64,000 nt of DNA, taken from the NCBI RefSeq assembly GCF_002798405.1, contig NZ_PGGV01000038.1, positions 62,001-126,000 of the forward strand, read 5' to 3'. Below, piece by piece: positions 7,663-55,581 of this stretch. Made by a program: the position numbers and the translations under genes. Position 1 is the first letter of the stretch. Each line of letters begins with the position of its first letter. This DNA is from Glycomyces xiaoerkulensis. Lineage in GTDB: Bacteria > Actinomycetota > Actinomycetes > Mycobacteriales > Micromonosporaceae. The notes beneath the pieces were generated by a model. The model worked only from the letters and a program-made list of their open reading frames with translations, was not told the DNA's origin and made no database searches.

Positions 7663-7736
7663 CGCGCCAGGCAGGATTCGAACCTGCGACCGTCGGATTA
7701 GAAGTCCGGTGCTCTATCCAGCTGAGCTACTGGCGC
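7663..7736 (-). tRNA. tRNA-Arg (anticodon TCT)
   Basis: Read on the minus strand it folds as a cloverleaf: acceptor GCGCCAG pairs with CTGGCGC, D arm GCTC/GAGC, anticodon loop CTTCTAA giving TCT, and T arm GCAGG-TTCGAAT-CCTGC. The discriminator is G and CCA is not encoded. It is 74 bases long. Confidence 0.95.
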
Positions 7737-24406: not shown

Positions 24407-27400
24407 GTGCGATTCCATGCCGATCTGCATATCCACTCCAAGTACTCCCGCGCCTGCAGCAAGGACTGCGACCTCGAACATCTGGCGTGGTGGGCCCGGC
24501 GCAAGGGCATCACCCTGGTGGGCACCGGCGACTTCACCCACCCGGCCTGGTACGACCACCTGCGCGAGAGCCTCGTGCCGGCCGAGCCCGGCCTGTTCCG
24601 GCTGCGCGAGGACCTCGACGCCGACATCGTCCGCCGCCTCCCGCCGAACCTGGCCGAGCGTCCCGTGCGGTTCATGCTGTCGGTCGAGATCTCCACCATC
24701 TACAAGCACGGCGACCGCACCCGGAAGATCCACCACCTGATCTACATGCCCGATCTGGACTCGGCGGCCGAGTTCAACCGCCGGCTCGCCAAGATCGGCA
24801 ACATCGCCTCCGACGGCCGGCCCATCCTGGGCCTGGACTCGCGGGACCTGCTGGAGATCGCGCTCGAGAGCGGCGCAGGCGGCTACCTGGTCCCCGCGCA
24901 CGTGTGGACGCCCTGGTTCGCCGTGCTCGGTTCGAAGGCCGGGTTCGACCGGATCGAGGACTGCTACCGCGACCTGTCCGACCACATCTTCGCGCTGGAG
25001 ACCGGCCTGTCGAGCGACCCGGCGATGAACTGGCGGGTGTCCGGTCTCGACCGGTATCGGCTGGTGAGCAATTCGGACGCCCACTCGCCGCCGATGCTGG
25101 GCCGGGAGACGACGCTGTTCGACACCGACCTGGACTACTACGCGATCCGGCGCGCGCTGGAGACCGGCGCCGGCCACGCCGGTTCGGTGGAGTTCTTCCC
25201 CGAGGAGGGCAAGTACCACGTCGACGGCCACCGCAAGTGCGGGATGCGCTTGGAGCCGAACGAGACCCGCGGGCTCGGAGGCAGGTGCCCCGAGTGCGGC
25301 AAGCCGGTCACGGTCGGCGTGCTCAGCCGCGTAGAGGACCTCGCCGACCGCCCCGAGGGCGCCCGCGCCGACGGCGCGGCGGACTTCAAGAGCCTGGTGC
25401 CGCTGCCGGAGATCGTCAGCGAGATCGTAGGCACCGGCCCGAAGAGCAAGAAGGTCCGCACCGAGATCGACCGGCTCACCGCCGGGCTCGGCCCGGAACT
25501 GTCGATCCTGGAGGACGCGCCGGTCGACGAGGTGAAGTCGCACTCGCCGCTGCTGGCCGAGGCGGTCGCGCGCCTGCGCGACGGCAAGGTGATCCGCGAG
25601 GCCGGCTACGACGGCGAATACGGCACCGTCCGGATGTTCGAGCCCGGCGAGGTCGCGACGCTGGGCGCCGTGAGCGTCCCCGCCCTGTTCGACGTCGAAC
25701 CGGCCCGGCCCGCAGCCAAGACAGCACCGCGACCGAGAGCCGCTCCCGCCGCGCCCGCCCCGGCGGTGCCGGCCCAGCGGGCCCCGGCCCCGGAACCGAC
25801 CGGATCCCCATTGGACGGGCTCGACCCCGACCAGCGCGCCGCCGCCGAGACGCCGTCCGGTCCGCTGCTCATCGTCGCCGGACCCGGTACCGGCAAGACC
25901 CGCACCCTCACCCACCGCATCGCCCACGCGGTGTCGACCGGAGCGGCCGACCCCGACCGGTGCCTGGCGATCACCTTCACCCGCCGCGCCGCCGAGGAGA
26001 TGGCCGAGCGGCTGGACGCGCTCATGAGCGACCGCACCGGACGCCCGACCGTCGCCACCTTCCACTCCCTCGGCGTCCGCCTACTCCGCGAACAGCACCG
26101 GCCCGCCGGGCTCGCCGCCGACTTCGGCATCGCGGCCGCCGACCGCGCGGCCGGGATCGCCGAGGAGGCCGCCGGAGACCGCAAGCTCGCCGCGAAGGTC
26201 CTGGCCCACCGGTCCCGGCCCGCGGGCGAGGCGCCCGAACCGGACCTGGCCGCCGCGCTCGAGCGCTACGCCGCCCGCCTGCGCGAGCTCGACCTGGTCG
26301 ACTTCGCCGACCTCGTGGCGCTCCCGCCGCGACTGCTCGAGGCCGATCCGGACCTGGCCGCGCACTACCGCGACCGGTACCGCTGGATCGCCGTGGACGA
26401 GTACCAGGACGTCGACGAGCAGCAGTACCGGCTGCTGCGCGCGCTGGCACCCCCGGACGGCGACATCACCGCCATCGGCGACCCCGACCAGGCCATCTAC
26501 CGCTTCCGCGGCGCCGACGTGGGATTCTTCCTGCGGTTCCGGCGGGACTTCCCGGCCGCCCGCACCGTCGAGCTGACCCGCAACTACCGCTCGGGGGCGA
26601 GCATCGTCGCCGGTGCCCTCCAGGTGGTCGAGCCGACCACGCTCGTCCCCGGCCGGGAACTGCGCCCGTTCGGCGGCCACGGCGAGCACCGCATCGAGTC
26701 GTACCGGGCCGCGAGCGAGGTCGACGAGGCGTCGTTCATCGCCCGCCGCATCGACCAGTTGATAGGCGGCACCTCGATGAACTCGTTCGACTCCGGCCGG
26801 GTGCTCGACGACGACTCCGGCGGGCTCGGCCTGTCCGACTTCGCCGTGCTCTACCGCACCGACCGCCAGGCGCAGGCGATCATGGCCGCCCTCGACCGCG
26901 CCGGACTGCCGTTCCAGAAACGCTCGCACGACCGCCTCGCCGACCGACCCGGGGTGCGGGAGCTGCTGGACGAGCTCGCCCTCGTTCCCGCCGACGGCCC
27001 GGCCGGCCCCACCGTCGCCGACCGCCTGCGCCGCGCGGCCGAGACCGTCCTGTCCCGCACCGGCGACGCCGAAGCCGAGACCGGTATCCGCACCGCCGCC
27101 GAGCTGCTCAAGCCTCCGGCCGAACGCTGCGGCGACGACCTCGAGCGCTTCCGGACCGAGCTCGTGCTGGGCCTCGAAGTGGACACGCTCGATCCCCGCG
27201 CCGACCGGATCTCGCTGCTGACCCTGCACGCCTCGAAGGGCCTGGAGTTCCCGGTCGTGTTCATCGCCGGCTGCGAGGACGGCCTGCTGCCGCTCCGCCA
27301 CCCCGGCGAGGACCTCGACGACGAGGCCGTCGCCGAGGAGCGGCGCCTGCTGTTCGTCGGCATGACCCGCGCCCAGCGGCACCTGTGCCTGACCCACGCC

Positions 27401-27538
27401 GCCAAGCGGTCCCGGCGGGGCGTCGAGACCGCCGCGGCCCGCTCGCCGTTCCTGGCCGAACTGAGCCCGGCGGTCCACCGGCGCCACGAATCCGAACCGA
27501 AGCGCCGCAAGCCCCATTACCAGCCCAAACTCATCTAG
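24407..27538 (+). CDS. Endonuclease Q-like PHP nuclease fused to UvrD-type helicase
   Basis: A 1043-residue two-part protein. Residues 1-430 match the EndoQ/YqxK family: PHP motif DLHIHSKYSRACSKD (H8, H10), GTGDFTHPAW (D42), E94, H110, H165, D224 and H226, then a zinc finger with H275, C278, C294 and C297. EndoQ enzymes nick DNA 5' of deaminated bases. A Pro/Ala linker (430-465) joins an SF1 helicase: GPGTGKT (492-498), DEYQD, a GDPDQAIYRFRGAD motif, and TLHASKGLEF with MTRAQ near the end. A fused nick-and-unwind repair enzyme is the obvious reading. The GTG start at 24407 immediately precedes the PHP motif. Confidence 0.88.
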   Translation: MRFHADLHIHSKYSRACSKDCDLEHLAWWARRKGITLVGTGDFTHPAWYDHLRESLVPAEPGLFRLREDLDADIVRRLPPNLAERPVRFMLSVEISTIYKHGDRTRKIHHLIYMPDLDSAAEFNRRLAKIGNIASDGRPILGLDSRDLLEIALESGAGGYLVPAHVWTPWFAVLGSKAGFDRIEDCYRDLSDHIFALETGLSSDPAMNWRVSGLDRYRLVSNSDAHSPPMLGRETTLFDTDLDYYAIRRALETGAGHAGSVEFFPEEGKYHVDGHRKCGMRLEPNETRGLGGRCPECGKPVTVGVLSRVEDLADRPEGARADGAADFKSLVPLPEIVSEIVGTGPKSKKVRTEIDRLTAGLGPELSILEDAPVDEVKSHSPLLAEAVARLRDGKVIREAGYDGEYGTVRMFEPGEVATLGAVSVPALFDVEPARPAAKTAPRPRAAPAAPAPAVPAQRAPAPEPTGSPLDGLDPDQRAAAETPSGPLLIVAGPGTGKTRTLTHRIAHAVSTGAADPDRCLAITFTRRAAEEMAERLDALMSDRTGRPTVATFHSLGVRLLREQHRPAGLAADFGIAAADRAAGIAEEAAGDRKLAAKVLAHRSRPAGEAPEPDLAAALERYAARLRELDLVDFADLVALPPRLLEADPDLAAHYRDRYRWIAVDEYQDVDEQQYRLLRALAPPDGDITAIGDPDQAIYRFRGADVGFFLRFRRDFPAARTVELTRNYRSGASIVAGALQVVEPTTLVPGRELRPFGGHGEHRIESYRAASEVDEASFIARRIDQLIGGTSMNSFDSGRVLDDDSGGLGLSDFAVLYRTDRQAQAIMAALDRAGLPFQKRSHDRLADRPGVRELLDELALVPADGPAGPTVADRLRRAAETVLSRTGDAEAETGIRTAAELLKPPAERCGDDLERFRTELVLGLEVDTLDPRADRISLLTLHASKGLEFPVVFIAGCEDGLLPLRHPGEDLDDEAVAEERRLLFVGMTRAQRHLCLTHAAKRSRRGVETAAARSPFLAELSPAVHRRHESEPKRRKPHYQPKLI

Positions 27539-31604: not shown

Positions 31605-31677
31605 TACTCCCGAGCGGATTCGAACCGCCGTTTCCGCCTTGAGAGGGCGGCGTCCTAGGCCCCTAGACGACGGGAGC
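31605..31677 (-). tRNA. tRNA-Glu (anticodon CTC)
   Basis: Minus-strand cloverleaf: acceptor GCTCCCG with CGGGAGT (one G-U pair), D arm GTCTAGGGGCCTAGGAC, anticodon stem-loop with CCTCTCA giving CTC, T arm GGCGG-TTCGAAT-CCGCT, discriminator A, no encoded CCA. It is 73 bases and matches bacterial tRNA-Glu closely. Confidence 0.95.
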
Positions 31678-45525: not shown

Positions 45526-45894
45526 GGGGCTGATCGGTTTCGACTCCGTGTGTTGATGTGAGGGAAGCGGGCCGAGGAAGCCAACGCTGTCTCGTTAACC
45601 AACGTTGGAAACCAATAAGTGCCAACGCAAAGCGCACTGACTTCTCCCTCGCTGCCTAAGCGACGGTGAAGTTGCCGCACCGGAAGCGCGTCCGTTCCGG
45701 ACCCGCGGCATCAGCTAGGACGCTGGGTCGACGACTTGGCCGCTGGGTCGTCGCACGACATCTTCGGCGGCTAGAGCCCGTCTCACCGACTCGTCCGCGT
45801 GATCGGTGGGGCTCGATAAAAGGCACAGCGGACTGCGCCCGGAGAAGTCTCACAGAAGCAGCGGAGGACCAGGGTTCGATTCCCTGCAGCTCCA
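45526..45894 (+). ncRNA. ssrA: Transfer-messenger RNA
   Basis: The 5' end GGGGCTGATCGGTTTCGAC and the 3' T-arm with GGTTCGATTCCCTGCAGCTCCA form the tRNA-like domain: GGGGCTG pairs with CAGCTCC and the discriminator is A, CCA not encoded. The tag frame at 45621-45659 reads ANAKRTDFSLAA and ends in TAA. Pseudoknot stems fill the rest. It tags stalled nascent chains for proteolysis with SmpB. Length is about 369 bases. Confidence 0.95.
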
Positions 45895-45907
45895 CTGATT
45901 CGGACAT

Positions 45908-54870: not shown

Positions 54871-55581
54871 ATGCAGAAAAATCTCGAGGAACTGGTCGAA
54901 CCCGGCTGGGCCAAGGCCCTCGCCCCCGTCGCGGACGAGGTGGCGAGGATGGGGGAGTTCCTGCGACAGGAGGTCGCCGACGGCCGCAGGTACCTGCCCG
55001 CCGCCGAACACATCCTGCGCGCCTTCCAGCAGCCGTTCGACGAGGTCAAGGTCATCATCGTCGGCCAGGACCCCTATCCCACGCCCGGCCACGCCGTCGG
55101 GCTCTCCTTCGCGGTCGCGCCGCACGTGCGGCCCCTGCCCAAGAGCCTGGTCAACATCTTCAACGAGTACCGCGACGACCTCGACCTCCCGCTGCCGGCC
55201 GACGGCGACCTCACCCCGTGGGCCGAGCGGGGCGTGCTGCTGCTCAACCGGTCCCTGAGCGTCCGGCCCGGCAAGCCCGCCTCGCACCGCGGCAAGGGCT
55301 GGGAGACCGTGACCGATCAGGCCGTCAAGGCCCTCGCCGAACGCGGCGGCCCCTGCGTGGCGATCCTGTGGGGCGCCGACGCCCGCAAGCTGGCGCCGCT
55401 CCTCGGTTCCGTCCCCCGCATCGAGTCGCCCCATCCCTCGCCGATGAGCGCGAGCCGCGGCTTCTTCGGCTCCCGGCCCTTCAGCCGCGCCAACCGGCTC
55501 CTGGTCGAGCAGGGGGGTGAGCCCGTCGACTGGAGGCTCCCGGCCCTGCAGGAGGCCGGAGGCGCCCGGTTACCGTGGTAG
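54871..55581 (+). CDS. ung: Uracil-DNA glycosylase
   Basis: A 236-residue family 1 UDG removing uracil from DNA. The catalytic water-activating motif [18 protein letters not shown] contains the key Asp, and the Leu-loop motif reads [21 protein letters not shown]; the residue that intercalates into the helix (Leu in most enzymes) is Met here. TAGCAT (54858-54863) inside the end of ilvA lies seven bases before the ATG, so it may have its own leaderless promoter as well as read-through. Confidence 0.95.

Follow-up and report, generated by a model that had tools for sequence, protein, structure and literature searches.

An EndoQ-type nuclease joined to a UvrD-family helicase, with a probable sliding-clamp tail, recurs in several groups of bacteria

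We analyzed a 64,000-nucleotide stretch of the genome of Glycomyces xiaoerkulensis (contig NZ_PGGV01000038.1, positions 62,001 to 126,000; hereafter the window), in which a single gene encodes an EndoQ-type nuclease followed by a UvrD-family helicase. This fusion had been proposed from the sequence alone (the original prediction), and domain searches, an AlphaFold model and Foldseek agree on it. The gene comprises the following features, given in window coordinates with residues counted in amino acids (aa):

24407-27538, + strand: EndoQ-UvrD fusion gene (GTG start, 1043 aa, uninterrupted open reading frame [ORF])
24407-25642, + strand: EndoQ-type nuclease core, residues 1-412, with PHP metal site and zinc-binding domain (sequence and fold match to the Pyrococcus enzyme PfuEndoQ; kept residues)
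25229-25297, + strand: probable zinc-binding residues H275, C278, C294 and C297 (alignment to PfuEndoQ)
25643-25813, + strand: linker, residues 413-469, disordered at 423-460 (pLDDT <50 in the AlphaFold model)
25685-25693, + strand: "LFD" motif near the linker start (LF[DEPSA] is common to fused linkers)
25814-27496, + strand: UvrD/PcrA-type superfamily 1A (SF1A) helicase, residues 470 to about 1030 (motifs kept; Pfam, Foldseek, PcrA alignment)
26762-26833, + strand: insert in the 2A domain with the signature GG..F.S.DSGR, residues 786-809 (consensus of fusion alignment A3; gap in alignments with PcrA and E. coli UvrD)
26954-27211, + strand: shortened 2B region, residues 850-935 (length comparison with PcrA)
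27521-27535, + strand: motif QPKLI at the C terminus, similar to sliding-clamp motifs, residues 1039-1043 (the consensus in the family is QLxL followed by F, L or I)

A nuclease and a helicase in one chain

In the AlphaFold model of the whole fusion (mean pLDDT 86.4, pTM 0.58), both halves are well modelled, and linker residues 423-460 and tail residues 1031-1043 are disordered. Given this pTM, the mutual placement of the two halves is not predicted. Foldseek matched the model to UvrD (2is1, E 1.4e-43) and to PfuEndoQ (5zb8, E 4.2e-31, TMt 0.87), so that the N-terminal half has the EndoQ fold. The linker measures 47-155 aa between anchor columns in 52 aligned fusions, and the closest named relative among the matches listed is from Glycomyces salinus (86% in the EndoQ half).

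Residues 4-412 of the window protein align with residues 4-384 of the 400 residues of PfuEndoQ (5zb8, E 2.9e-51), and corresponding positions were found by counting in this pairwise alignment. The window protein keeps H8, H10, D224 and H226 (H8, H10, D193 and H195 in PfuEndoQ), which we take to be further PHP ligands, together with E94, H109 and H165 (E76, H84 and H139), G200 and S202 (G169 and S171), and C278, C294 and C297. In PfuEndoQ, the substitutions E76A, H84A and H139A each abolish activity, and H139, G169 and S171 are described as residues of the base pocket (PMC8307549). No catalytic ligand was lost in the alignment, and the proposed PHP metal set is kept at the residues tested. For a residue survey, 141 loci were reduced to 76 fused and 16 stand-alone bacterial rows plus three without a label; across the fused and stand-alone rows, H10, E94, H109, H165, G200, S202, D224 and H226 are invariant, while H8 is replaced in two fused rows and one stand-alone row.

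A full zinc finger had also been claimed. The three cysteines stand, but the first ligand, Cys in PfuEndoQ, is His (H275), which makes the zinc set H-C-C-C. The same His occupies this position in 75/76 fused and 16/16 stand-alone bacterial rows. Histidine is a usual zinc ligand. Four C-terminal cysteines have been suggested as the EndoQ signature (PMC4357722), and since the window protein has H275, C278, C294 and C297 instead, we file this half as EndoQ-type and not as an EndoQ in the strict sense. It scores 158.4 bits with the TIGR00375 model, below the curated cut-off of 326.6, and is therefore not filed under that family either. The concern that the closest relatives might be TIGR00375 proteins devoid of EndoQ activity was not borne out: a TIGR00375 match was found in Bacillus subtilis, whose homologue had EndoQ-like activity in a preliminary experiment (PMC4357722), and the EndoQ of B. 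pumilus is active (PMC6202378). From its residues, the EndoQ half of the window protein is predicted to nick DNA 5' of uracil, hypoxanthine, xanthine or an abasic site.

The second half is a complete SF1 helicase, as originally described. Pfam places UvrD-helicase at residues 472-716 (E 2.4e-64) and the best stretch of UvrD_C at 911-998 (E 1.5e-31), and the half matches PcrA (E 1.5e-74), with residues 470 onward also matching UvrD and Rep. The SF1A motifs Q, I, Ia, II, III, IV, V and VI are kept, and their residues are largely invariant among the 52 aligned fusions (motif I Lys and Thr, and motif II DE, each in 52/52). The scores with the NCBIfam equivalogs for PcrA, UvrD and Rep (369, 292.7 and 303.5 bits) all lie below the cut-offs (911.2, 1144.45 and 951.45). 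The 2A insert, which falls in a gap of the PcrA and E. coli UvrD alignments, is 20-25 aa long in 51/52 fusions and 43 aa in one. The stretch matching residues 850-935 measures 64-121 aa in the 52 fusions compared to about 165 in PcrA (counted in the alignment), so that the aligned 2B regulatory region is about half the length of that of PcrA. The 2B region keeps monomers in check, and the Rep monomer becomes active once it is deleted (PMC13238157). By analogy, a short 2B next to a nicking half suggests an enzyme that may be primed to unwind. SF1A helicases move with 3'-5' polarity, and the motifs of the helicase half predict ATP-dependent unwinding in this direction. On the intact strand, such movement would be in the productive direction: the strand displaced would be the one whose first nucleotide is damaged.

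Spread and history of the fusion

A scan of named genomes returned at least 585 relatives, of which the best 80 were examined, so that this set leans to close relatives. EndoQ and helicase lie in one frame at 75 of the 80 loci, two loci have separate EndoQ and UvrD ORFs that overlap, and three are stand-alone. Among the 75, L041 and L088 look frameshifted inside the helicase, and several reach the end of their contig. As the one-frame arrangement recurs in 75/80 loci, the fusion is not an assembly artefact. The fused records belong to eight groups (Actinomycetota, Planctomycetota, Pseudomonadota, Myxococcota, Verrucomicrobiota, Elusimicrobiota, Binatota and gut Melainabacteria). In three loci from gut Melainabacteria (L087, also numbered L171; L090, also numbered L170; and L157), EndoQ and UvrD form two overlapping ORFs, which could be coupled genes or frameshifts.

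We also sampled single phyla, using frame length as a proxy for fusion. The window's EndoQ half as query found EndoQ in 7/296 genomes of Actinomycetota, the window's own included (five fused, one alone, one cut by a contig end). The other three samples were queried with alignment A2 and centred on a genome chosen for having EndoQ; in the larger ones, no more than 6 to 12 first-look candidates were scored for each genome, and some matches may have been missed. Matches occurred in 19/299 genomes of Pseudomonadota (nine frames of at least 1000 aa, nine of 410-514 aa, one partial), in 21/149 of Planctomycetota (nine full-domain frames above 1000 aa, six of 439-538 aa, four distant, two partial) and in 39/146 of Cyanobacteriota (29 frames of at least 949 aa, nine of 418-449 aa, one of 652 aa). 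The best 15 loci of each sample comprised nine fused, five alone and one cut in Pseudomonadota, nine fused and six alone in Planctomycetota, and 12 fused and three split in Cyanobacteriota; the locus sets overlap, with nine EndoQ cores carrying two locus ids each. We conclude that the fusion is recurrent in several bacterial groups and not private to the window's genome.

Within the window's genus, EndoQ was found in 5/22 genomes, twice as a fusion (in the window and in genome G316) and three times alone. The three stand-alone genes adjoin the same two neighbor genes as in the window, and their loci gave no helicase remnant up to E 10 save chance-level fragments. The G316 contig has the PfkB neighbor, and one of the two window neighbor genes lies on another contig of G316; this gene occurs in 22/22 genomes of the genus. 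In a tree of EndoQ cores, made by a quick method that leaves 42/96 inner branches open, most stand-alone rows nest within fused rows and five deep stand-alones branch outside. Such nesting is expected from loss of the helicase, which some lineages appear to have undergone. The fusion may or may not have a single origin: its label takes 10 changes on this tree, in which the branch leading to PfuEndoQ is very long. Three sequences from Elusimicrobiota and an alphaproteobacterial metagenome-assembled genome (L076, L078 and L095) sit inside the EndoQ clade of gut Melainabacteria (support 100), a placement that suggests transfer between gut bacteria.

A shared operon partner did not emerge from a neighbor search over 84 loci: no repair gene was recognized among the 14 largest clusters with the crude ORF calling used for GC-rich DNA and without a family scan. 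These clusters, of 14-26 loci each, comprise Micromonosporaceae records plus two genomes from the family to which the window belongs. Apart from the fusion, the window carries a gene for transfer-messenger RNA (45526-45897, +) and two transfer RNA genes (7663-7736, - and 31605-31677, -).

The C-terminal tail

Bacterial clamp motifs of the form QLxLF are usually C-terminal (PMC4549789). We compared the tails of 76 fused proteins that have their own stop codon with 5158 other stop-to-stop frames. Q-x-x-[LIMV]-hydrophobic stands at the end, or one residue before it, in 71/76 fused tails vs. 8/5158 background frames, and within the last 14 residues in 73/76 vs. 67/5158; the QLxL form occurs in 66/76 vs. 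0/5158. This contrast is not a probability, as the fused rows are related and the background frames are mostly not genes, and the spread of the motif over phyla is for these reasons the stronger argument. One record was counted twice among the 76; its removal gives 70/75 for the motif at the end and 66/75 for QLxL. Q and the fourth-place L are present in 52/52 aligned fusions, and 37/76 tails, from related rows, end in QLRL followed by I, L, V or M.

Five tails lack the terminal motif. In L075 and L089 it lies a few residues inward, in L017 further inward, and in L041 and L088 a clamp motif ends the ORF of the next reading frame. The separate UvrD ORFs beside split EndoQ ORFs end likewise, in QLTLF (L087) and QLSLF (L090). 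The helicase paralogues of the window's genome (8 of 13 matches including the fusion) include L002 and L003 without the motif and two frames that are cut. Also among them, a short UvrD-like ORF of 430 aa (L006, contig C8) ends in the clamp-like EQPRLL.

The archaeal enzyme provides a precedent: TkoEndoQ binds PCNA through a C-terminal PIP box (dissociation constant 55 nM), and PCNA stimulates the enzyme. The same work already pointed out clamp motifs in bacterial EndoQ (PMC4858679). What is new here is the placement of the motif at the end of the fused helicase. The family tail is probably a hook for the beta sliding clamp. The five deep-branching stand-alone EndoQ proteins (L015 and L153-L156) also end in clamp-like motifs, and the nested stand-alones with a stop do not. 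A simple account would be that the helicase was inserted between the EndoQ core and its clamp tail, although the tail may instead have arisen anew. Near the linker start, LF[DEPSA] occurs in 72/115 fused frames and QxxLF in 20; this is perhaps a second or ancestral clamp motif.

Substrate and proposed role

The lesions named originally were uracil, hypoxanthine or related bases, and the distribution of EndoQ in Cyanobacteriota favors hypoxanthine and supports uracil less. Uracil-DNA glycosylase (UDG) family matches were found in 145/146 genomes, which led us to reject EndoQ as a UDG substitute. Because all 39 EndoQ-positive genomes are among them, we favor hypoxanthine over uracil. The window itself carries the separate Ung gene noted originally (54871-55581, PF03167). 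In three cyanobacterial genomes (G839:C10, G793:C3 and G849:C4), some 6-8 kb separate EndoQ from a UDG gene that by eye belongs to family 4; the three genomes group together in the UDG tree.

Small EndoQ-negative genomes often have an extra, weak UDG-family match, which we had considered to be Mug and which a family scan replaced by the DNA-deoxyinosine glycosylase TIGR04274. Among genomes of ≤2.3 Mb, a size limit chosen once the data had been inspected, this glycosylase is present in 12/31 genomes without EndoQ vs. 0/32 with EndoQ (Fisher P = 5e-5, with seven EndoQ-positive genomes that have an unlisted match left out). All 12 score above the TIGR04274 cut-off. UDG-family matches were listed in full for the 31 EndoQ-negative and five EndoQ-positive genomes; judged by score and sequence, 32 of the 39 EndoQ-positive genomes have only strong UDG matches or, in two cases, a longer Ung-like third protein. 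In one EndoQ-negative genome (L248, G920:C1:9900-11200), a weak UDG-family match runs over two overlapping stretches with a TGA and is possibly a broken glycosylase gene; it was not counted as positive.

Shared ancestry explains little of this exclusion, since a tree built on a UDG common to 56 genomes shows hardly any clustering of the labels (5/39 and 9/31 were left out where the gene was absent from the listings). The EndoQ label needs 16 changes vs. a shuffled mean of 17.5 (as low in 130/500 shuffles) and the glycosylase label 10 vs. 11.0 (as low in 116/500). In independent pairs on firm branches, EndoQ and glycosylase never changed the same way. The two genes also share surroundings: 32/170 ORFs in the 12 glycosylase regions match 25 EndoQ loci, vs. 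12/244 in 20 control regions hand-picked from the same 12 genomes, and two or more genes are shared with one EndoQ locus by 6/12 glycosylase loci vs. 1/20 controls (P = 0.006). The clearest example is a block of five genes next to EndoQ-UvrD in G836; in G843 this block is found about 1.3 kb away from the glycosylase. No EndoQ sequence was seen in the 400-aa ORF between block and glycosylase, and the data support a shared neighborhood and not an exact in-place swap. Taken together, the genome distribution points to hypoxanthine more than uracil as the substrate.

From the observed architecture, conserved residues and tail, short 2B and genome distributions, we infer a role and an order of events. 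The PHP/zinc half would flip out a deaminated base, above all hypoxanthine and also uracil, xanthine or an abasic site, and would nick the backbone just 5' of the lesion, leaving a 3'-OH. The SF1A motor with its short 2B would then load on the intact strand, move 3'-5' and peel away the other strand from the damaged nucleotide onward, opening a gap for repair synthesis, while the QLxL[F/L/I] tail would tether the fusion to the beta sliding clamp, in the way that archaeal EndoQ is anchored on PCNA by its C-terminal PIP box. We consider it fairly probable that EndoQ-UvrD is such a clamp-tethered enzyme of alternative excision repair. The self-contained repair unit proposed originally goes beyond the evidence in that polymerase, flap removal and ligase are still needed, though the joining of nuclease and helicase stands. 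More tentatively, and with somewhat less than even confidence, the fusion could be a one-chain excision machine for deaminated adenine, widespread in bacteria, whose EndoQ nickase and 2B-reduced helicase, tethered to the clamp, excise hypoxanthine without a glycosylase, and which would be functionally interchangeable with hypoxanthine-DNA glycosylase and repeatedly exchanged with it in the same chromosomal neighborhood. A literature search on this glycosylase returned nothing.

Several points weigh against the excision-repair role. We found no assay of any fused protein in the literature, and the window's own tail, QPKLI, is weak and off consensus, although it keeps Q1 and L4. In some lineages EndoQ lacks both helicase and tail, which makes the motor dispensable in them. 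Since EndoQ is accompanied by Ung and other UDG-family proteins, it is not the sole route for uracil. The glycosylase exclusion bears on EndoQ and not on the fusion (29/39 EndoQ-positive genomes have a frame of fused length), 19/31 EndoQ-negative genomes lack the glycosylase as well, and P would be 0.063 if all seven left-out genomes carried it. The independent-pairs test falls short of significance (six pairs, median P = 0.125). Neighborhood sharing is partial: 2/12 glycosylase loci share no neighbors, and at least four of the 12 share neighbors with each other.

The same nuclease might use its helicase for access, clearing proteins or RNA polymerase or opening the duplex, with the nick handled by Pol I. 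PfuEndoQ cuts uracil and hypoxanthine in single-stranded DNA (PMC11354406), several EndoQ lineages do without a helicase, and UvrD-family helicases are reported to displace proteins; nevertheless, the 2B of Rep links translocation to protein displacement (PMC6158625), so that a short 2B speaks mildly against clearing, and SF1A polarity fits unwinding from a nick. We regard this access role as unlikely. That the PHP half has lost lesion specificity and serves as a general nuclease trimming helicase-made ends, as in AddAB or RecB, is in our view improbable. In its favor are the TIGR00375 score far under the cut-off (158.4 vs. 326.6 bits) and the existence of PHP domains that act as exonucleases; against it, G200, S202 and the catalytic residues are invariant in 76/76 fused rows, the zinc ligands are kept save for Cys to His, and EndoQ shows the exclusion with deoxyinosine glycosylase.

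A helicase-nuclease that attacks phage DNA containing uracil or hypoxanthine could be imagined as well, given the antiviral role suggested for bacterial EndoQ and the patchy distribution in the genus (5/22). PADLOC, run on the fusion only, matches it with helicase models of defense systems, but the matches among those listed (25 of 52 families) fall on the helicase part. A tblastn search with the EndoQ half against 50,697 phage and 72,556 plasmid records gave no hit, and the three congeners keep EndoQ beside the same two neighbor genes as the window. Pfam found no defense family, and no Gabija-type or other helicase defense partner, in 10 window proteins including the nearest neighbors (two without any family). 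As the clamp tail and the exclusion with a repair glycosylase fit repair, we hold a defense role to be very improbable.

Compared with known systems, the fusion shares the PHP site, pocket residues, zinc domain and fold with EndoQ of Pyrococcus and Thermococcus (PfuEndoQ; PDB 5zb8, 7k30), as well as a C terminus that binds the clamp in the archaeal enzyme and probably does so in the fused family. The archaeal enzyme, of about 420 aa, has no helicase and carries a PIP box for PCNA; the fusion differs from PfuEndoQ in the His for the first zinc Cys, a longer E94-H109 stretch and the helicase that follows. Stand-alone bacterial EndoQ (Bacillus, TIGR00375; seen here as a control match only) has the same nuclease core without a helicase. 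The motifs and core fold are common to PcrA, UvrD and Rep, whereas the half-length 2B, the conserved 2A insert, EndoQ in front and the clamp tail at the end set the fusion apart. In mismatch repair by MutL, beta clamp and UvrD, a clamp-associated nick is followed by UvrD unwinding from that nick. This works like the proposed mechanism, but with separate proteins and on a mismatch instead of a deaminated base.

Our literature searches found no description of an EndoQ-helicase fusion. In the accounts we drew on, EndoQ is mainly an archaeal enzyme that occurs in some bacteria as well, and the events that follow its nick are given as proposals. Beyond the original prediction, we add the spread over several phyla, the C-terminal clamp motif, the short 2B and a distribution that leans to hypoxanthine. 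A helicase in the same chain, recurring in several phyla, hints at what follows the EndoQ nick, and the tail hints at tethering to the replication clamp. Further, the exclusion with deoxyinosine glycosylase makes the biological substrate of EndoQ testable in mesophilic bacteria.

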